Shown here piece by piece: positions 3,334 to 11,747 of a stretch of DNA of 64,000 nt; position 1 is the first letter of the stretch, and every line of letters begins with the position of its first letter. Under the pieces are notes generated by a model. The model saw nothing but the letters and a program-made list of their open reading frames with translations, made no database searches and was not told the DNA's origin. Source of the stretch: Mucilaginibacter sp. (lineage in GTDB: Bacteria; Bacteroidota; Bacteroidia; Sphingobacteriales; Sphingobacteriaceae); the NCBI GenBank assembly GCA_028288305.1, contig JAQBOA010000043.1:1-64000 (forward strand), in the 5' to 3' direction. The position numbers were made by a program, and so were the translations under genes.

Positions 3334-4175
3334 TCATTTTTGTTTCCAATGCTGACGTTTGATCAACTTGCAGTTTTTGATATTTAAATACATGAAAATC
3401 CCCGTCGCGATCAAACAGAATATCGTGGCCTGGATCGTGCCTTCCGGCCCGAATTTGCAGCCAGTGATCCATTCCGCGCCGGTTAACTGCATTGTCAGTA
3501 ACCTGGGGGTATTGTCATTACCCGAAGTGATCGCACCGAAGATACCCGATTGCATAAAATTCCAGGCAAAATGGATCGCTATCGGCAGCCACAGACTTCT
3601 GGAATAGATATAAGCCGCGCCTAATAATAAACCCGCTTCGGCCGCTATACAGATCGCCGAAACTAAAGTAGCGTTAGGGTTGAAGAGGTGTAAAGCGCCA
3701 AATATCAGTGCAGAAATCAGTAAAGCGATATAACTACCCAACTTCTCTTCTATGATTCTGAATACAATGCCGCGTATTAAAATCTCTTCAAAAATGGCAA
3801 CAGTGAAAGCTACCGTCAGCGGAATAATGATAAAGGAAACCGGGTTAACAGACACTATTTTGAAGCCATCGTTCAAAAGATCACCAATATGGTCAGGCAT
3901 TGAATGGTTACACCTATAGCAACACCTATCACCAAATTTTTGATGATGCTTTTCGAGAGTTCGGTGATCTCACGTTTTTCCATTCAACGAAAGAACAGGC
4001 GGTAAGTCCCGATGACCGCGATGGAAGCCAGGATGTCTTTGACCAAATTCCGCAGTTCTTTGCCGGTGTCTTTAAGCAGCCTGGCACTGATATTTTGGGT
4101 CGCGATAAACACGATCAAACAGACCAGGAGACCTAGGATGATCCGGGTAACGGGATGGCTTAATAATTTTTTCAT
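3334..4175 (-). pseudogene. CPBP family intramembrane metalloprotease, broken by a nonsense codon and a frameshift
   Basis: Type II CAAX prenyl-endopeptidase/bacteriocin-processing family membrane protein. The C-terminal part (3334-3900) carries the core motifs FEEILIRG (EExxxR), FGALHLF and AIHFAWNF (HxxxN). The N-terminal part (MKKLLSHPVTRIILG..., 3984-4175) stops at TGA exactly where YRLFFR should continue as (W)MEKREITEL, consistent with TGG to TGA. In the next segment a one-base loss in a T run (about 3868-3874) shifts ILVIF out of frame with NDGFKIVSVNP. Two lesions argue for a real pseudogene rather than one read error. It overlaps the DUF4386 gene by 4 bp, so it was the last gene of that operon. 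Confidence 0.8.
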
Positions 4176-4834
4176 AGCTGTGATGGTTTAAACCCTTTGA
4201 TGATAAGGTATAGCCCCAGTGAAAATTCAAACAGCGCGACTAATAGCGCAGACAACCCTGCTAAAACCGAATGTTGACCGATCAGACCAAACTGTATCGC
4301 GAAATAGCCAGCCAGAAGTGGGACTGCTCCGATGATTCCGATCAAGGAAAGGCCGCGAGGCACAAGGCGAGACCGATATAGCATGACTCCCAGCAACAGG
4401 TCGCATATGGCCGGCATGAAGCTTTGTCCGAGGAGGAAAATGCGGTCATAAAGAATTGCAAGTGCATGGCTGGTCACCAAGGCATTTGCTCCGGCTCCGG
4501 CCCGCCGCAAGGTCACAATCGACAAAAGGAACGCCACGCCGACGAAAATGGTGCCGGATTCCAGGATACGGGCGGCAACGAGTCCCAGTGCGGCACTTTC
4601 ATGCTGCTTCCTGAGCACCGGGTAAAGCACAACGGCCGTACTGATGCCGGCCAGGGCCACGATGATTTCCAGTATGCCGCCGATAACGACAGCAGTATCA
4701 GGGCCTTGTCCTACAATGTAGTTAGGATCGTGTACTGCCTGATAAAGTACAAGGGTTGGTATCGAAACGAAAGTGAGCACATAGCACACCCCCGCGACCA
4801 GCGCGGTTTTTCGGTTGGCGTTCATTTTTTTCAT
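4172..4834 (-). CDS. DUF4386 domain-containing membrane protein
   Basis: A 220-residue integral membrane protein with about six hydrophobic segments (residues 12-30, 48-70, 88-110, 125-145, 155-175, 185-210 approximately) and the family-typical start NRKTALVAGVCYVLTFVSIP. The family has no established function. It is followed with a 4-bp overlap by the CPBP protease pseudogene and lies 11 bp below the S41 peptidase, so it belongs to the operon that starts at the barrel gene (6327-7001). Confidence 0.88.
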   Translation of the reverse strand: MKKMNANRKTALVAGVCYVLTFVSIPTLVLYQAVHDPNYIVGQGPDTAVVIGGILEIIVALAGISTAVVLYPVLRKQHESAALGLVAARILESGTIFVGVAFLLSIVTLRRAGAGANALVTSHALAILYDRIFLLGQSFMPAICDLLLGVMLYRSRLVPRGLSLIGIIGAVPLLAGYFAIQFGLIGQHSVLAGLSALLVALFEFSLGLYLIIKGFKPSQL

Positions 4835-4845
4835 TTGCTTAAATT

Positions 4846-6294
4846 TTATGGTTTGATCAGCTTTTTGGCAAATTCCAGTTCGGGGTCTTTGCCTTTGAGT
4901 TTGTCGGCTATGGTCGGTATCACCCGATAGTTTGGATACAAGCCATGATCCTTAAATTGGTAATCTTTTACAGCCATCATATACATCATTAAAGGAATAG
5001 CCACCCTTATCTTCGTAACAGGCAAAGTCATTTCCGGCACAATTCCTGAATTATTTCCGTAATAGCCGCCGCCCGATTCTTCACCGATAAAGACCGCGTT
5101 GGTATTGGAATGGATCATCGAAATGCATTCGCTGGCCGTGGAAAAACAGCCCCCATTGATCAGCACATAAATTTTACCGGTATAGGTGGGCAGCATTGGT
5201 TTTTGCTTACCTACATTCGGGTGACGGATCACATCAAAAGTTCCAGCCGCATTTGCTTTGATAAGGGCGGCGGGAACCTTGCGCCCTGCCATCTCTGTGT
5301 ATTTGAAAAATCCGAAATTATCAGTGTTAATGGTCAGAGAGGAATAGTAATCAAACTCATGGCCTACTAAATAAGAGAACAGCAGCTTTCCAAACTCATC
5401 CGTGCCGCCGTGGTTATTCCGGAGGTCTATAACCAGATTTGTTATCTTACTCGAATCGATGCGGTTAAAAGCGGTTTGAAGAAACTTTGGCAGGTCAAGT
5501 TTTTGCTGCTCCAGCACATCGCCGTCAAAAGATTCAATTTTTAAATAGGCGGTCTTTTGATCATCCGTTATTTTGAATGCCAATGGATCTGATAAAAAAT
5601 GCACAGGATATTTTTTATCCCGGATCGCATTCAGTTTACTAAAGACCAATCCGGGCAGTTTTGCTTTTTTTACTTTAGAACCGGCACCCGAAAGGTATTC
5701 AACGGGGTAAAAACTGGTATCGCCGTACAGGTAATAAAAATACCTGGTAAAATATTTTGAAAAGGTAAGATTCCGGTATTTGTAGGTTTGATTATGCCCA
5801 TCAGCAGGCATGATAGCCAGCATATCCTTCAATATCGAATTGGTGGAATGCCCGTTGATCGCAACGATACCCGCCCCCACAAAACCTTTATCTTCAGTAG
5901 TAGAAAAATTGGTCAAGACAAACAGCTTGCCGTCCGAGTAATAGGGCTGAAACGGGATCGCGGTGGCTGCTGCATCAAATTTATCCTGATCGGTCTTAGG
6001 GGCCAAAACGGCCAGGTGGCCGCAGCCTATCTGCGTAGTGATTTTACTCAGGAGTAGTTGATACTTGCTTTCAGGCATAGGCCCGGCAATATCACTTTCA
6101 GCCGCATCAAAGATCGCATTCATGGCCGCTTTAGTGTTGTAACGATAAATTCCGGGATGCCCCTCTTCCAATGCCGATCTGAAAATTTTGAAGTCGCTCC
6201 TTAATTCCGCTGCCGAATAGTTCGGTTTTGTAACCTCTTGAGCAAAAATGATAGATGGCAGCAATAGTAATAACAGAAGTGATTGGATTTTCAT
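4846..6294 (-). CDS. S41 family peptidase, secreted
   Basis: C-terminal-processing-protease (S41) family serine protease, 482 aa from the ATG ending at 6294, chosen because it starts the signal peptide MKIQSLLLLLLLPSIIFAQ. Seen: the interface DLRNNHGGTDEFG near residue 290, the nucleophile region NGGCFSTASE with the serine near residue 385, and GEESGGGYYGNNSG after it. No clear PDZ domain separates the halves, as in the tail-specific-protease-like 'interphotoreceptor' subgroup. It is probably periplasmic or surface-associated. It is the second gene of a four-gene minus-strand operon whose promoter carries operator A. The target is unknown. Confidence 0.9.
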   Translation of the reverse strand: MKIQSLLLLLLLPSIIFAQEVTKPNYSAAELRSDFKIFRSALEEGHPGIYRYNTKAAMNAIFDAAESDIAGPMPESKYQLLLSKITTQIGCGHLAVLAPKTDQDKFDAAATAIPFQPYYSDGKLFVLTNFSTTEDKGFVGAGIVAINGHSTNSILKDMLAIMPADGHNQTYKYRNLTFSKYFTRYFYYLYGDTSFYPVEYLSGAGSKVKKAKLPGLVFSKLNAIRDKKYPVHFLSDPLAFKITDDQKTAYLKIESFDGDVLEQQKLDLPKFLQTAFNRIDSSKITNLVIDLRNNHGGTDEFGKLLFSYLVGHEFDYYSSLTINTDNFGFFKYTEMAGRKVPAALIKANAAGTFDVIRHPNVGKQKPMLPTYTGKIYVLINGGCFSTASECISMIHSNTNAVFIGEESGGGYYGNNSGIVPEMTLPVTKIRVAIPLMMYMMAVKDYQFKDHGLYPNYRVIPTIADKLKGKDPELEFAKKLIKP

Positions 6295-6326: not shown

Positions 6327-7001
6327 TTATTTCTTTTTGCTGAATGGGTTTGTCTTCCAGGCTTTGGAAACATGGATGCTGACAACAAAACTCCGGTTGT
6401 ACATTTCCTGTCCACGAGAGATATTGGTCAGCCCGTAATTATAGCGCAGGTCAAGGGCGATCCTTTTTGTTTTGGTATGAAAGGTATAACCACCACCTGC
6501 CTGAAGTCCGGCATCAAAGCGCTTAAAGCCATTGGTTGATGAATCAAAAGCCAGGTCGCTGGTTTGATCGTTGATATTTCGCGTGCCGTAAAAATTATAG
6601 GCGATGGAAGGCCCGGCATTCACATGGAATTCACTGAAGTGAAAACGCGCCAGTAAGGGTATTTCGATGGCATAGGTCCGGATCGTGGATTCGCTGGTTG
6701 TTAACGGGTTATTCGCTTTAAGTTTTCCGCCCTTCATCGAGAAATAGAACTCGGATACAAGCGAGAATGCCGGCGTGATACCTGCCTGGAAAGTTACGCC
6801 GACCTGCGCGCCCAGTACAGATTTCTTATAGTCGCTCAGGGCGTTGTTATTAGCACCATAATTAAGGTTCGTACTCACCAAATTGACCACGGCGTCTAAA
6901 TAAGTTTTGGCGGTTTTAACCGTATCTGTGGTTTGGCAAAAGGCCGCGGGGGCCAGGAACATCATACCAAGTATTAGTCCTGTGTGTAAGGTTTTTTTCA
7001 T
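6327..7001 (-). CDS. Outer-membrane beta-barrel (PorT/OMP_b-brl_2-like) protein
   Basis: A 224-residue barrel protein with a cleavable signal (MKKTLHTGLILGMMFLAPAAFCQ). Alternating strands such as GAQVGVTFQAGITPAFSLVSEFYFS and the terminal FVVSIHVSKAWK support an 8-strand barrel typical of Bacteroidota 'porin family' proteins. It is the first gene of the operon with the S41 peptidase and DUF4386 protein. Its promoter region (7028-7112) has a -7 box TACTTTTG and the triple 21-bp repeat assigned to the adjacent LytTR regulator. The ligand or role is unknown. Confidence 0.85.
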   Translation of the reverse strand: MKKTLHTGLILGMMFLAPAAFCQTTDTVKTAKTYLDAVVNLVSTNLNYGANNNALSDYKKSVLGAQVGVTFQAGITPAFSLVSEFYFSMKGGKLKANNPLTTSESTIRTYAIEIPLLARFHFSEFHVNAGPSIAYNFYGTRNINDQTSDLAFDSSTNGFKRFDAGLQAGGGYTFHTKTKRIALDLRYNYGLTNISRGQEMYNRSFVVSIHVSKAWKTNPFSKKK

Positions 7002-7027: not shown

Positions 7028-7112
7028 CAAAAGTATATGAATGACTTAGGTTGGTAAATTTTGTTATGCCAAGTGGCCCCGGATGTCTGCATATGGCCGG
7101 TTCCTGTCTGCA
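7028..7112 (-). promoter_or_regulatory. Operator/promoter A: triple 21-bp-spaced repeat plus -7 box
   Basis: Read on the minus strand: TGCAGA (7107-7112), TGCAGA (7086-7091) and GGCATA (7065-7070), each exactly 21 bp apart, then 35 bp on to a Bacteroidota -7 box TACTTTTG (7028-7035). The barrel-gene start is at 7001. Operators B (10175) and C (11064) have the same layout. Direct repeats two helical turns apart are the usual target of LytTR DNA-binding domains, and a LytTR regulator is encoded immediately next door. That regulator is therefore the likely activator. Confidence 0.75.
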
Positions 7113-7125
7113 AAGCAGGGTTGGT

Positions 7126-7821
7126 TTAAGCCCTGCTGTTGACGAGTTGGAAGAAGGTATCTTTATAGGTATCCGAAACCGGGATCAATTGGTCGGCAAT
7201 CTTGATACGGCTGCGCTCGATAGATTCGATCTTGCTCACCGCCACCATAAATGATTTATGTACCCGGCACACCAGGCTGGCCGGGATCAGTCGTTCGAAC
7301 TCACTGAAATTCTGGAGAGTCATCACTTTTTTGGTGGTGGTATGTACCCTGCGGTAATCCCGCATTCCTTCAATATAGATGATCTCGCTGATCATGATCT
7401 TTTCCAGGCGGTTCTCGGTCTTCACAAAGATGAAATCAGCTGGATTATCCGATTTTTTTTGCGTTAAATTTTCCTGCGCTTTATTAACCGCTTGCAGGAA
7501 ACGGCTAAATTCAAAGGGTTTTAAAAGATAATCGGTGATTTGCAGTTCATAGCCTTTCAGCGCATACTCCTGGTAAGCCGTAGTGATGATAACCTGGCTG
7601 TTGATCTTTGAACTTTCCAGTAATTCTATCCCGGTCAGTTCATCCATATTGATGTCCAGGAAAAGCAGATCGACCTTATTATTATTGAGGTAATTTAGCC
7701 CGGTCAGGGCATTGTCAAACGTCGCACTTAAACGCAAAAAAGGGACCTTGTCTACAAAGTCCTTTGTTTTTTCCAGCGCAAGTGGCTCATCTTCGATAAT
7801 AATGCAGCTTAGTTTATCCAT
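7126..7821 (-). CDS. LytTR family response regulator
   Basis: Two-component response regulator, 231 aa. An N-terminal receiver domain has the acidic pair ED (residues 10-11), phospho-acceptor D56 in LFLDINMDELTG, and K101 in DYLLKPFEF. A C-terminal LytTR DNA-binding domain (about 135-230) has IIYIEGMRDYRRVHT and the VCRVHKSFMV segment. Its start overlaps the 3' end of the histidine kinase by 8 bp, so the two are translationally coupled. Its stop codon is only 14 bp from operator A, and two further copies of that operator lie upstream in the same cluster, which makes this protein the obvious regulator of all three units. Confidence 0.95.
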   Translation of the reverse strand: MDKLSCIIIEDEPLALEKTKDFVDKVPFLRLSATFDNALTGLNYLNNNKVDLLFLDINMDELTGIELLESSKINSQVIITTAYQEYALKGYELQITDYLLKPFEFSRFLQAVNKAQENLTQKKSDNPADFIFVKTENRLEKIMISEIIYIEGMRDYRRVHTTTKKVMTLQNFSEFERLIPASLVCRVHKSFMVAVSKIESIERSRIKIADQLIPVSDTYKDTFFQLVNSRA

Positions 7822-8881
7822 TGGGTATCATTAAATCAATCGTGTATAATTCATTGGTTTTTTCCACCCGCAGATGATGTTTCCCCTTATAAAGGAGTTC
7901 AAGCCGTTTTTTGATCAGCTCATTACCCAAACCGCTGTCCGGCTGCTGTATTTTTACCCCTGGTTCGAACTTATTGGCACAGACTAACCTGATGTTGTCA
8001 TCATTGACGAAGATATCGATCGTGATAGCGTTCTCTATTTTCTTATTGTTGGTGTGTTTAAACGCATTTTCAATGAACGGAATAAAGACCATCGGCGCAA
8101 TGAGTTTATTACCCATCACCCCGGTCACTGAAAAGTTTACGTAATGTTGGTTGGCGGTCCTTATTTTTTGCAAGGCGATATACTTTTCCAGGTATTCCAC
8201 TTCCTTGTGCAATAAGATCAGATCAGTCTTTGTTTCGTAAAGGATAAACCGCATAATACCCGATAGCTTATTCAAATAATTGGAGGCTTTGACCGCATCT
8301 TTCAGAATGAGCGCGTCGATGTTATTGATGGTATTGAACAGTAAATGCGGATCAAGTTGCGATTTGACCAGCGCCATTTCCATCTCGTAGTTTTTTTCTT
8401 TCAATAGTTCTTTCAGCCTGATCTCAGAGAGCCAGGTAACAAAGCCTTTGATACTTAGCGCCAGCATACCGGTGATCAGATCAATAAAGGTCGTCACCAT
8501 GATTACCTTGATAGCAGTTGACCGGCCGTTTTTGCCGCCCTCATCCATATCGAGGACGTGGCCTGTTTCGATCAGGTAACGGTGCAGGACATAGGAAAGG
8601 GCTGCGATACCAACGGCGATCAACAGACCAAAGACCAGCGACAACAAAAACTTCCGTTGTTGCAGGTATTTGGGAAATAAGACGAAATAATAAAGTATGT
8701 AGGTGATGGCCGAAGGCAGGATGGCAAACAAAAAAAGGCTTTTTAAAGCATTGATTACCCGGGCAACGTGGTCGCCGGTAGGTGGACTGCTTTTGTTGTA
8801 AAGCCCCAGAAGGATGCCGATCAGGATGAAATAACAAGTCCAGAAACCGACATTCAACAAAAGCGCTAAATATTTTTTCAT
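7814..8881 (-). CDS. LytS/YehU-type sensor histidine kinase
   Basis: A 355-residue membrane histidine kinase. Four transmembrane segments occupy about residues 5-25, 45-70, 78-100 and 125-150, with no sensory PAS domain. The phospho-acceptor histidine is H179 in SQLDPHLLFNTINNIDAL (His_kinase family). The ATPase part contains PMVFIPFIENAFKHTNNKK (N box) and DSGLGNELIKKRLELLY (G box). It is paired with the LytTR regulator by an 8-bp overlap. It starts 59 bp after the esterase gene without an obvious operator of its own, so it may be transcribed from operator B by read-through. The signal is unknown. Confidence 0.95.
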   Translation of the reverse strand: MKKYLALLLNVGFWTCYFILIGILLGLYNKSSPPTGDHVARVINALKSLFLFAILPSAITYILYYFVLFPKYLQQRKFLLSLVFGLLIAVGIAALSYVLHRYLIETGHVLDMDEGGKNGRSTAIKVIMVTTFIDLITGMLALSIKGFVTWLSEIRLKELLKEKNYEMEMALVKSQLDPHLLFNTINNIDALILKDAVKASNYLNKLSGIMRFILYETKTDLILLHKEVEYLEKYIALQKIRTANQHYVNFSVTGVMGNKLIAPMVFIPFIENAFKHTNNKKIENAITIDIFVNDDNIRLVCANKFEPGVKIQQPDSGLGNELIKKRLELLYKGKHHLRVEKTNELYTIDLMIPNG

Positions 8882-8939
8882 AATTATCTATAAATGTGTC
8901 TCTTTAATTCGGCTTTACAGCATTTAATATTCGGGTCGT

Positions 8940-10154
8940 CTATTTACCTTTCAAAAGTAAATTTAGTTTAGCCCTTGTTTCTGGTATCTCTTTGATAGCC
9001 AGTGCCTTTTTAAAACAGATCATTGCGTTATTGTTATCACCTTTTGCCAGGTAATAGTCCCCATAAGAATCCTGAGGGTTAGCGTCCTTAGGGTAGTTAA
9101 GCACATTTAAAGCAAATAATTCCCCGGCCATATTATATTGCTTTGACCTTAAAGCGTAATATCCCAGATTATTGACCAATGGTTCATCAGGAAGTACTTG
9201 GTAACCCAGTTCCTCCGTAATTTTTCGGTAATGAGCTATGATCACTGAAGACAAATTTGGATTGGTTATTTGATACTCGGCATATCTGGGGAAAACATAA
9301 TAATCAAAAATAAAACGCAATGCATCATATGCCGCTATTAAAGGGACTGTTTGATGATTGTCATTCTCGTAATACTCCTCTTTAAACCGCAGTTTATTTT
9401 CCGGATGCTGGTGCACGTGATGTATCAGATCCAAATTATACCTTACCAGTTCTGTCTTGTCTGACGTATCTGCCTGTACAGCTGTCGTATCGACGCCTCT
9501 TTCCATATGATTTGCTATGGCCAGAAACAATGTTTTATAGGCATAGGAATCTTTTTCAATGGCGGCATTAGCTTCTTTCAAAACTTTGTGACTGTCCCAC
9601 CAAATGGATGGTTCTATGGCAATATAGCCGTTGAAAAGGTCCTTATGATGAACCATCGTTTGCACGACCATTAACCCGCCCAGGGAATGGCCCATTAGAA
9701 GTTTATAGGGTGCAGTAAGATAATTGGAATCGATGTGGGGAATTAACTCTTTTTCTATAAAGGAAAGAAAACGCTCTCCGCCTCCCGAATTTTTTACGCC
9801 GTCTGCATTGTTTGCAACGGTTGTTGGCGTGAGATCCCTGCTTCTATCGGTGTTAGGGATGCCTACTACGATCATAGGCGGACAAAGGCCCATATCGGCC
9901 AAACGTTCTACGGTTATTGCAACGGAGCGGAAATTATTTTCACCATCTAACACGTAAATGACAGGGTAATTGCCTTTTGTTGTAGCACGGGATTTTTTGC
10001 CTTGATATGGCGTGTAGATCAGCAATTGCCGCTGCTCTTTTAATATGTCAGACCTAACACTATCTGCAAAGCCTAAGCTAAAATTGCTTTGCGACTGCGC
10101 TGTCGCATCAAAAATTGAAACGATGAAAAAGGAAAGGAAAAAAAGATACTTCAT
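8940..10154 (-). CDS. Secreted Fes/IroE-like alpha/beta-hydrolase (esterase) with TPR-like tail
   Basis: A 404-residue esterase from the ATG ending at 10154, chosen because it begins the signal peptide MKYLFFLSFFIVSIFDATAQ. The putative-esterase (esterase D/Fes) fold shows YPVIYVLDGENNFRS near residue 65 and the nucleophile elbow LMGHSLGG with Ser157. The final 60-70 residues look like tetratricopeptide repeats (DSYGDYYLAKGDNNNAMICFKKALAI). Such proteins cleave siderophore or other ester substrates in the periplasm, but the actual substrate is unknown. Operator B and a TACATTTG -7 box lie directly upstream, so it is probably induced by the neighbouring LytS/LytTR system. Confidence 0.88.
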   Translation of the reverse strand: MKYLFFLSFFIVSIFDATAQSQSNFSLGFADSVRSDILKEQRQLLIYTPYQGKKSRATTKGNYPVIYVLDGENNFRSVAITVERLADMGLCPPMIVVGIPNTDRSRDLTPTTVANNADGVKNSGGGERFLSFIEKELIPHIDSNYLTAPYKLLMGHSLGGLMVVQTMVHHKDLFNGYIAIEPSIWWDSHKVLKEANAAIEKDSYAYKTLFLAIANHMERGVDTTAVQADTSDKTELVRYNLDLIHHVHQHPENKLRFKEEYYENDNHQTVPLIAAYDALRFIFDYYVFPRYAEYQITNPNLSSVIIAHYRKITEELGYQVLPDEPLVNNLGYYALRSKQYNMAGELFALNVLNYPKDANPQDSYGDYYLAKGDNNNAMICFKKALAIKEIPETRAKLNLLLKGK

Positions 10155-10174
10155 TTTATTTATGGGATATAAGG

Positions 10175-10259
10175 CAAATGTATCCAAAGGCAACAGTTCG
10201 GGAAATTGCCTTATGCCAAGCAGGCTCAGATGTCTGCAATCTTGTTCATTTCATCTGCG
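10175..10259 (-). promoter_or_regulatory. Operator/promoter B: triple 21-bp-spaced repeat plus -7 box
   Basis: On the minus strand: CGCAGA (10254-10259), TGCAGA (10233-10238) and GGCATA (10212-10217), at exact 21-bp steps, then 35 bp to the -7 box TACATTTG (10175-10182). It serves the esterase starting at 10154. The upstream two hexamers lie within the last codons of the choline-kinase-like pseudogene (stop at 10226-10228), so coding and operator sequence overlap. Confidence 0.75.
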
Positions 10260-11059
10260 AACCGGAGCGACCACATATCGGCCAAAGCCGCATTTAGCAA
10301 GTTTTGGCCAAGCGCCCCTTTATCAAACAGGAGTATAGCGTAAACGATCCTGCAGACCTGCTTCATTAAAAAGAACCGTGCACGCTTGTAGTCTGAAAGA
10401 CCGTCACCAAAATAAGCTTCAAGAAAAATATTTTCCTGTTCATCACCGGCAACATAAAAGTTGGCGGCTATAGCCAGGTCAACATAGCGGTCGCTCTGAT
10501 GCGCGGCGTCCCAATCAATGACTCATATTTTTGCTCCGTCACAGATGGTGTTGCCGGGGTTAAGATCGTTATGGCTGGGCACCCTATCGGTATCGTCCCA
10601 GGGATAATGCTTTCTGATCTCTGCATAATAAGTCAGACACGCTGCTAGCGCAGACCCTTCAAATTGAGCGATAAGGCTATCAACGGTAGTTACTAAATTA
10701 TTTCCGTCCGGAAATGGCGGCAACTCGTGTATGCGCCTGATCGTTCGCGCAAGTTCTTGTATTGAAACCCTTGCCGTATTTTCAATAAAGCCCGCGATCG
10801 ATAGACCTGTTGTCTTATTTGAATAATAAACCGGTGGCGCAATGCCTGCTTCAGCGGCGATCTCCATATTGCCCGAAAGATTACCCAGTTTTAAAACGTA
10901 GGGCTGATCGTTAATCGCGATTTTAAATACGGGTGAGGCAGACAAGCCACCCGGCAGTAAAACGAGTTCTTGTACTGCCATAGTCCGAAAGGTTTGCTGT
11001 AACGCACTTTCAACTGCTGCCAAATGTGACGGCGGTATCAGGGTCTGTAGGATTTCCAT
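10226..11059 (-). pseudogene. Choline kinase / aminoglycoside phosphotransferase-like protein with an internal TGA
   Basis: An APH/choline-kinase-fold small-molecule phosphotransferase. The 278-codon frame is interrupted at codon 179 by TGA (10523-10525). The first part holds the catalytic Brenner loop SHNDLNPGN. Directly after the stop the same frame continues VIDWDAAHQSDRYVDLAIAANFYV, which supplies the second metal-binding aspartate and the C-lobe, ending MNKIADI. The stop replaces what is plausibly a TGG. A product ending at 10523 would lack the DFG-equivalent motif and be inactive. Operator C precedes it; the promoter is so close that the message would be nearly leaderless. Confidence 0.85.
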
Positions 11060-11063
11060 CTAA

Positions 11064-11149
11064 TAAAAGTAACTTAAAGAGATCGGTCAGGAGATTTTTG
11101 TTATGCGAAGTGCGCCTGAATGTCTGCATCCTGTCGATTTCACTCTGCA
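11064..11149 (-). promoter_or_regulatory. Operator/promoter C: triple 21-bp-spaced repeat plus -7 box
   Basis: On the minus strand: TGCAGA (11144-11149), TGCAGA (11123-11128) and CGCATA (11102-11107), with 21-bp steps, then 36 bp to a slightly weaker -7 box TACTTTTA (11064-11071). The kinase-like pseudogene starts at 11059, only 5 bp beyond the box, so the transcript would be leaderless or translation would begin further in. The layout is the same as in operators A and B. Confidence 0.7.
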
Positions 11150-11349: not shown

Positions 11350-11747
11350 GTGGAGAATAAAATATTCGCGTTTTTAAAGACATTGAATGTAAGTGAGTTA
11401 TGCTATTTTAATTATTCGTATTTGCAATAAAATCAGTTTAAAATTCTAAAAAAACTCTGGCATAACTTCGTCAAAAGTCTGCCAAAAACTCTGGCAAAAG
11501 ATGTTGGAACGGTTTTTTTGTAAATTTTAAAATTGATAATTTTTTCTGATTTTTTGTAAATTAGTAAAACAATAAAAACACTGTTTTTAATATCAAGAAG
11601 GGTGTTTTTTAAAGAATAATTCAATTAAAAACTCTGGCAAAAGTCTGCCAAAACGTGAAAAAAAATGAAAAGAAAACCGCTCTCAGACTATCAAAAACAG
11701 CGTTTGGGTTTCGCAATTGAGGCTCTTGGCAATCCGATATTCTCCAC
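11350..11747. mobile_element. 398-bp MITE-like element with GTGGAGAATA terminal inverted repeats
   Basis: The left end GTGGAGAATA (11350-11359) and right end TATTCTCCAC (11738-11747) are perfect 10-bp inverted repeats. A further direct copy of GTGGAGAATA lies at 11181-11190. The interior has repeated CTCTGGCA / GTCTGCCA units forming TGGCA-N6-TGCCA inverted repeats and a 28-codon plus-strand ORF. No transposase is present. A degraded relative of the right part lies at 2890-3028. The identification as a mobile unit is inference from the ends and the second copy. Confidence 0.45.

Follow-up and report, generated by a model that had tools for sequence, protein, structure and literature searches.

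The well-studied LytTR systems come mostly from Firmicutes and Proteobacteria. A typical LytTR site is described as a pair of 9-11 nucleotide (nt) repeats with spacers of 11-13 nt (PMC4847170), and the operators of the LytTR Regulatory Systems (LRS) are pairs as well (PMC6193735). Triple LytTR operators are also on record, for RcoM-1 and CoxC, and the published account gives all three repeats as necessary for CoxC repression (PMC11347149). Here, we describe operators of three phased half-sites around a LytS-type kinase gene and a LytTR response regulator gene in a stretch of 64,000 nucleotides from Mucilaginibacter sp. (Bacteroidota; assembly GCA_028288305.1, contig JAQBOA010000043.1, positions 1 to 64,000), referred to below as the window. 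Sequence comparison indicates that these sites are very probably activator operators of the adjacent regulator, in what would be a small, self-contained LytS/LytTR cassette whose targets are marked by the distal half-site. A first-pass annotation of the window had called a third phased half-site unusual for LytTR proteins, a view that the RcoM-1 and CoxC precedents correct (PMC11347149). Because triple sites were already known for these two proteins, what the present locus adds is the pairing of this type of operator with a response regulator, together with a contrast between two-part and three-part promoters.

As published, the RcoM-1 and CoxC operators likewise consist of three direct repeats about two helical turns apart that serve LytTR domains, as they would here, and their words are loosely similar (TTCNNGCA there, TTTNGCAGA here). 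The present operators differ from them in having steps of exactly 21 bp and in the two-part form seen at the kinase-regulator promoter. In addition, CoxC is described as a one-protein sensor of carbon monoxide (CO) with an MHYT domain, whereas the window encodes a receiver-LytTR regulator and, separately, a LytS-type kinase. RcoM-1 is a CO-responsive single regulator too. YpdA/YpdB of Escherichia coli also combines a LytS-type kinase with a LytTR response regulator, and its direct repeats have the 11-13 nt spacer of the class (PMC4847170). However, YpdB is described as having two paired sites, A and B; the regulator of the window falls far below the NCBIfam BtsR and LytR models, and the promoters here are of the Bacteroidota type. 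The HdrRM system, one of the LRS of Streptococcus mutans, resembles the locus in its direct repeats just upstream of the -35 element and in positive autoregulation of the regulator operon, but the partner reported there is an inhibitory membrane protein rather than a kinase, and the operators are pairs (PMC6193735). Among the literature matches listed, no title or abstract start concerned the operator described here; subscription papers were mostly outside reach, so its absence from print is not claimed.

Triple operators in the window and at related loci

The three operators of the window, designated a, b and c (Table 1), consist of half-sites at steps of exactly 21 bp throughout. A window scan with the search pattern GCAGA-N16-GCAGA-N16-GCATA gave three matches, all on the minus strand (7065-7111, 10212-10258 and 11102-11148), compared with none in each of 100 dinucleotide shuffles. 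Across the whole genome of 4,908,314 bases, these remained the only three matches, and the reversed control gave none. Coordinates, shuffles and genome scan thus bear out the three-hexamer pattern reported by the first-pass annotation. Its proposal of a local regulon fits as well, because the three exact operators of the genome all lie within 4.1 kb; such a regulon would comprise the barrel-S41-DUF4386 genes, the esterase operon including the regulator, and the APH-like gene. A matrix built from 70 sites at loci of other genomes scores the window sites at 52.6, 45.7 and 41.8 bits, and the next-best window position at -14.4. The genome encodes 15 LytTR domains in total, and the 14 other LytTR loci have no site within the 3.3 kb covered at each (best full score, -11.1).

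The arrangement recurs at loci of regulator orthologues. The best 80 of 130 such loci were analyzed, with regulators 69-95% identical to that of the window; more distant loci lie outside this sample. L072, which has no readable regulator end, was left out, giving counts over 79 loci, and the reading frames were picked by script, so that some may be wrong. The loci span Mucilaginibacter to Saprospiraceae and Flavobacterium, plus one labelled Chlorobiota. When word spacings in the 600 nt after the regulator were counted with no pattern assumed, GCAGA was followed by GCATA at 21 bp 58 times, by GCAGA at 21 bp 37 times and by GCATA at 42 bp 36 times, and any other distance up to 70 bp occurred at most once. 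Absence of the triple at orthologues in species that keep the two-component pair would have refuted the first-pass annotation, and this test did not refute it: with up to 3 mismatches in 15 letters, the triple is present within 700 nt after the regulator at 70 of the 79 loci, 33 times exactly. Scored with the full matrix, 72 of 79 loci carry a site of more than 15 bits in the 1000 nt that follow the regulator, and in 56 of the 72 it lies 4-35 nt past the stop codon. Over the 80 loci (1.12 Mb), matrix matches above 5 bits numbered 114 on the regulator's strand, including the 70 training sites, and one on the opposite strand, and one first-order simulated copy of each locus yielded zero. The site alignment and profile were made from 67 of the 68 distinct locus sites plus the three window sites, L091 being left out as weak. 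Two Flavobacterium loci (L062 and L063) carry further operator copies several kb from the regulator, and the regulon may be wider there.

A -33/-7 promoter of the Bacteroidota type follows the operator closely and at a constant distance, the last half-site ending 6 bp before the -33 TTG. The consensus of the relatives reads TTTTGCAGAYTAAAA...TTTGCAGACATCTT...CTTTGCATA.....AATTG, followed by about 20 bp and TAnnTTTG, the -7 consensus of Bacteroidota sigma-A promoters (PMC9723704). TTTG starts at a constant offset in 65 of 73 sites, a set that includes the three window sites. In the window, TAnnTTTG boxes are present in promoters a and b. The distances given by the first-pass annotation, 35, 35 and 36 bp (start to start) from the last hexamer to a TAnnTTT(G/A) box, hold, with the amendment that promoter c has TTTA at the end of its box and TCT at the -33 position. 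In Flavobacterium psychrophilum, the -7 box has been mapped at -12 to -5 (PMC9723704). Assuming the same placement, arithmetic puts the half-sites at approximately -88/-84, -67/-63 and -46/-42, and the TTG at -35/-33.

This geometry bears on whether the regulator could instead be a repressor like CoxC, with the third half-site tightening repression of the target. The requirement for all three repeats in CoxC repression lends this alternative some appeal, but the CoxC operator is reported to overlap the -35 element, whereas here the last half-site stops short of the -33 TTG at a fixed distance, and most LytTR regulators are said to bind upstream of -35 and to activate (PMC11347149). Repression is therefore unlikely.

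Half-site number at kinase and target promoters

The promoter of the kinase and regulator genes mostly carries the two promoter-proximal half-sites, and the promoter that follows these genes carries three, a strong tendency rather than a law because exceptions exist. For this comparison, sites were picked by half-sites two and three alone. On the target side (after the regulator), a site was found in 74 of 78 regions, and the first, second and third registers hold 9.16 (over seven positions), 10.66 and 10.87 bits, respectively. On the kinase side, a site was found in 52 of 70 regions; the second and third registers are similarly well defined (11.13 and 10.26 bits), whereas the first holds 0.86 bits. 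The -7 box, at the same offset on both sides, carries 10.57 bits at target promoters vs 7.01 at kinase promoters, and the -33 element 7.11 vs 3.93. Counted by letter, at least five of the six letters of T.GCAGA are matched at 63 of 74 target promoters, and at most three at 42 of 52 kinase promoters. Where one locus has both sites (48 loci), the target's first half-site is the better in 44, tied in four and worse in none (sign test, 1e-13, with loci treated as independent of descent). Six extra kinase-side sites, which probably escaped the scan through a wrong script-called gene start, lie outside the scanned region at the usual kinase-promoter distance and match zero to three of the six first-half-site letters. 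The paired operator of other LytTR systems, two repeats about 21 bp apart upstream of -35, is thus found at the kinase promoter of most relatives that have a site, and three-part target promoters depart from it.

An ordinary LytTR pair formed by half-sites two and three might be operative at all of these promoters, with the distal GCAGA as a neutral leftover. Most kinase promoters with a site do keep these two half-sites alone, and the target promoters of L140 and L141 have no others. Nevertheless, the distal half-site holds its 9.16 bits over 74 target promoters, against 1.27 bits in the register one step further out, a difference that makes neutrality quite improbable.

If the sites are three-part activator operators of the adjacent regulator, the LytS-type kinase would phosphorylate the regulator, and regulator molecules would bind the TTTnGCAGA, TTTGCAGAC and TTnGCATA half-sites on one DNA face, two helical turns apart, as their spacing suggests. 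With a start site as in Flavobacterium, the half-sites would lie near -86, -65 and -44, upstream of a sigma-A promoter with TTG (-33) and TAnnTTTG (-7), to which the bound regulator would recruit RNA polymerase. The two promoter-proximal half-sites would form the core common to both promoter kinds of the system. The distal third half-site would mark the target promoters, the kinase-regulator promoter having mostly two half-sites and weaker -33 and -7 elements. The likely effect would be a strong output combined with weaker positive feedback, the third half-site raising the output.

Whether half-site number amounts to a code, with three half-sites for output and two for the system's own promoter in many Bacteroidota, is about an even bet. 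Under such a code, one phosphorylated regulator would set two response curves, and the downstream gene could be exchanged while the three-part promoter stayed. The system offers an operator that is local and strictly spaced and that comes with its own two-versus-three comparison within a locus, repeated across dozens of genomes. How the number of half-sites affects LytTR activation can thereby be tested directly, for which a single purified protein and two natural promoters suffice. The operator also offers a route to assigning targets of the regulator in sequenced Bacteroidota.

Distribution across genomes and exceptions

Regulator and operator tend to occur in the same genomes. A survey of 399 family genomes found the regulator (E<=1e-90) in seven, the exact triple in 11 and both in six (Fisher p=5.9e-10), that is, the triple is present in 6 of 7 genomes with the regulator vs 5 of 392 without it. 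The seventh regulator genome, G370, has a triple with one mismatch. By profile search, each of the seven regulator genomes has two to three sites at E<0.01, all within about 3 kb of the regulator except operator c of the window (3.3 kb) and one site on another contig of G397, which is followed at 425 nt by an esterase gene with 86% identity to that of the window. Another three profile matches, at E 0.04-0.07, are weaker and map elsewhere in three genomes. The exact triples of the regulator-less genomes G006, G200, G227, G235 and G350 were judged by eye, from their sequence and the lack of a -7 box, to be chance or coding matches. Although the link to the adjacent regulator is drawn from proximity, this sharing of genomes (6/7 vs 5/392), the position of the site 4-35 nt past the regulator's stop codon in 56 of the 72 loci that have one, a spacing that matches the published LytTR direct repeats (PMC4847170, PMC6193735) and the 14 other LytTR loci of the genome without a site make it very unlikely that a different transcription factor binds here.

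Several observations count against the regulator-operator link and the two-versus-three rule. The 79 loci are related by descent, so that their counts overstate independence. In a thinner sample of the phylum, with 296 genomes, the regulator (E<=1e-70) is found in six and the profile (E<=1e-4) in three, and only the window's own genome has both; the other regulators of that sample are just 50-64% identical to the window's. Five loci with regulators of 50-58% identity have no above-threshold site within 3.7 kb. Among paired loci, the four ties are L051, L076, L082 and L092. The kinase promoter of L015 matches five of the six first-half-site letters, L062 has a near-complete triple upstream of the kinase gene, and L140 and L141 have two half-sites at both promoters. 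Eighteen of the 70 kinase regions lack an above-threshold site, 12 once the six recovered sites are counted. The window itself breaks the rule: its kinase-proximal pair is lost (best -11.6 bits), and a triple lies upstream of the esterase-kinase-regulator genes. Here, operator b would probably have taken over kinase and regulator expression by read-through. L016 is similar, with the kinase-proximal pair gone (best -21.5 bits) and a triple further upstream.

Twenty newly fetched loci were also examined, ten of which share regulator DNA with the training loci and ten of which do not. Within the latter ten, L098, L138 and L123 show three half-sites vs two, L140 and L141 show two vs two, and the five loci of 50-58% identity mentioned above lack an above-threshold site within 3.7 kb. 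L123 (genome G551), whose regulator is 64% identical to the window's, has a triple and a pair by matrix. At L132, one of the five (57% identity), a longer stretch holds a two-part site near 930, which hints at a greater age or wider spread of the two-part form. By eye, the targets of L140 and L141 resemble that of L092, and in all three cassettes the target looks like a serine hydrolase; each of the three has two half-sites at both promoters. Two weak partial matches from the strict phylum-wide profile search (3/296 genomes), both outside the window's own genome, look like chance and were not used.

The distribution of the regulator is scattered (7/399 family genomes at E<=1e-90 and 6/296 of the phylum sample at E<=1e-70). 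In the regulator tree, members of different families are intermingled, and many forks are unsettled. The regulator may thus have spread horizontally or been lost repeatedly.

Genes of the locus and predicted target genes

All genes of the locus are transcribed from the minus strand, in the order operator c, APH-like frame, operator b, esterase, PF06580 kinase, receiver-LytTR regulator, operator a, outer-membrane barrel, S41 peptidase and DUF4386 (Table 1). A gap of 58 nt separates the end of the esterase gene from the start of the kinase gene, which overlaps the regulator gene, and operator b therefore probably drives all three as a single operon. If so, operator b would also be autoregulatory.

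Table 1. Operators, -7 boxes and genes of the LytS/LytTR locus (window coordinates)
Feature	Position	Strand	Elements or domain matches	Remarks
Operator a	7065..7112	-	half-sites 7107-7112 TGCAGA, 7086-7091 TGCAGA, 7065-7070 GGCATA	precedes barrel-S41-DUF4386 genes
Operator b	10212..10259	-	half-sites 10254-10259 CGCAGA, 10233-10238 TGCAGA, 10212-10217 GGCATA	precedes esterase-kinase-regulator
Operator c	11102..11149	-	half-sites 11144-11149 TGCAGA, 11123-11128 TGCAGA, 11102-11107 CGCATA	precedes APH-like gene
-7 box, promoter a	7035-7028	-	TACTTTTG	-33-like TTT at 7056-7058
-7 box, promoter b	10182-10175	-	TACATTTG	
-7 box, promoter c	11071-11064	-	TACTTTTA	
Response regulator, receiver and LytTR DNA-binding domains	7126..7821	-	PF00072 3.6e-17, PF04397 6e-14	
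LytS-type sensor kinase (His_kinase family)	7814..8881	-	PF06580 2.7e-20	
Putative esterase	8940..10157	-	PF00756 5e-21; weak C-terminal TPR match below cut-off	first gene after operator b
APH-like phosphotransferase frame	10226..11059	-	PF01636 3.7e-4, below cut-off	after operator c; in-frame stop; first part 10523-11059
Outer-membrane beta-barrel protein	6327..7001	-	PF13568 4.7e-25	first gene after operator a
S41-family peptidase	4846..6294	-	PF03572 1.1e-15	directly after barrel gene
DUF4386 protein	4172..4834	-		third gene after operator a; recurrent barrel partner in relatives

In the window regulator, both the receiver and the LytTR domain exceed their Pfam cut-offs, and a PF06580 histidine kinase gene adjoins. 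Residue D56, in LFLDINMDE, is invariant in 17 of 17 aligned regulators (16 of the 80 fetched orthologues and the window's own); it would be the conserved phospho-acceptor aspartate of the family. NCBIfam assigned a specific name to neither the kinase nor the regulator of the window: the regulator reaches 99.3 of the 246 bits set as the cut-off for BtsR and 87.3 of the 375 bits for LytR, and is an equivalog of neither. In a sequence search of solved structures, the best 60 of 93 matches are receiver domains.

The genes that follow the operators were compared across loci. First target genes were scanned in 74 of 79 reading frames, five kinase frames being left out, and gave, among others, 34 OMP_b-brl_2, six OMP_b-brl, eight CarbopepD_reg_2, three DoxX_2, three DUF2306, three Peptidase_C1_2, two DUF4386 and one esterase match, with some overlap. 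For the following genes, 65 of 94 frames, from 50 chosen loci, gave 33 DUF4386, five S41 and five DoxX_2. By these family matches, the usual predicted output is an outer-membrane barrel and a DUF4386 protein, probably envelope proteins. A literature search on DUF4386 found nothing.

The APH-like frame continues past its in-frame stop near 10523 and runs into operator b, where its final codons share sequence with half-sites one and two. At L016, merely a short remnant of the end of this frame precedes the triple site. Upstream of operator c, an AT-rich gap (11450-11660) contains, by eye, several short repeated CTCTGGCA / GTCTGCCA words.

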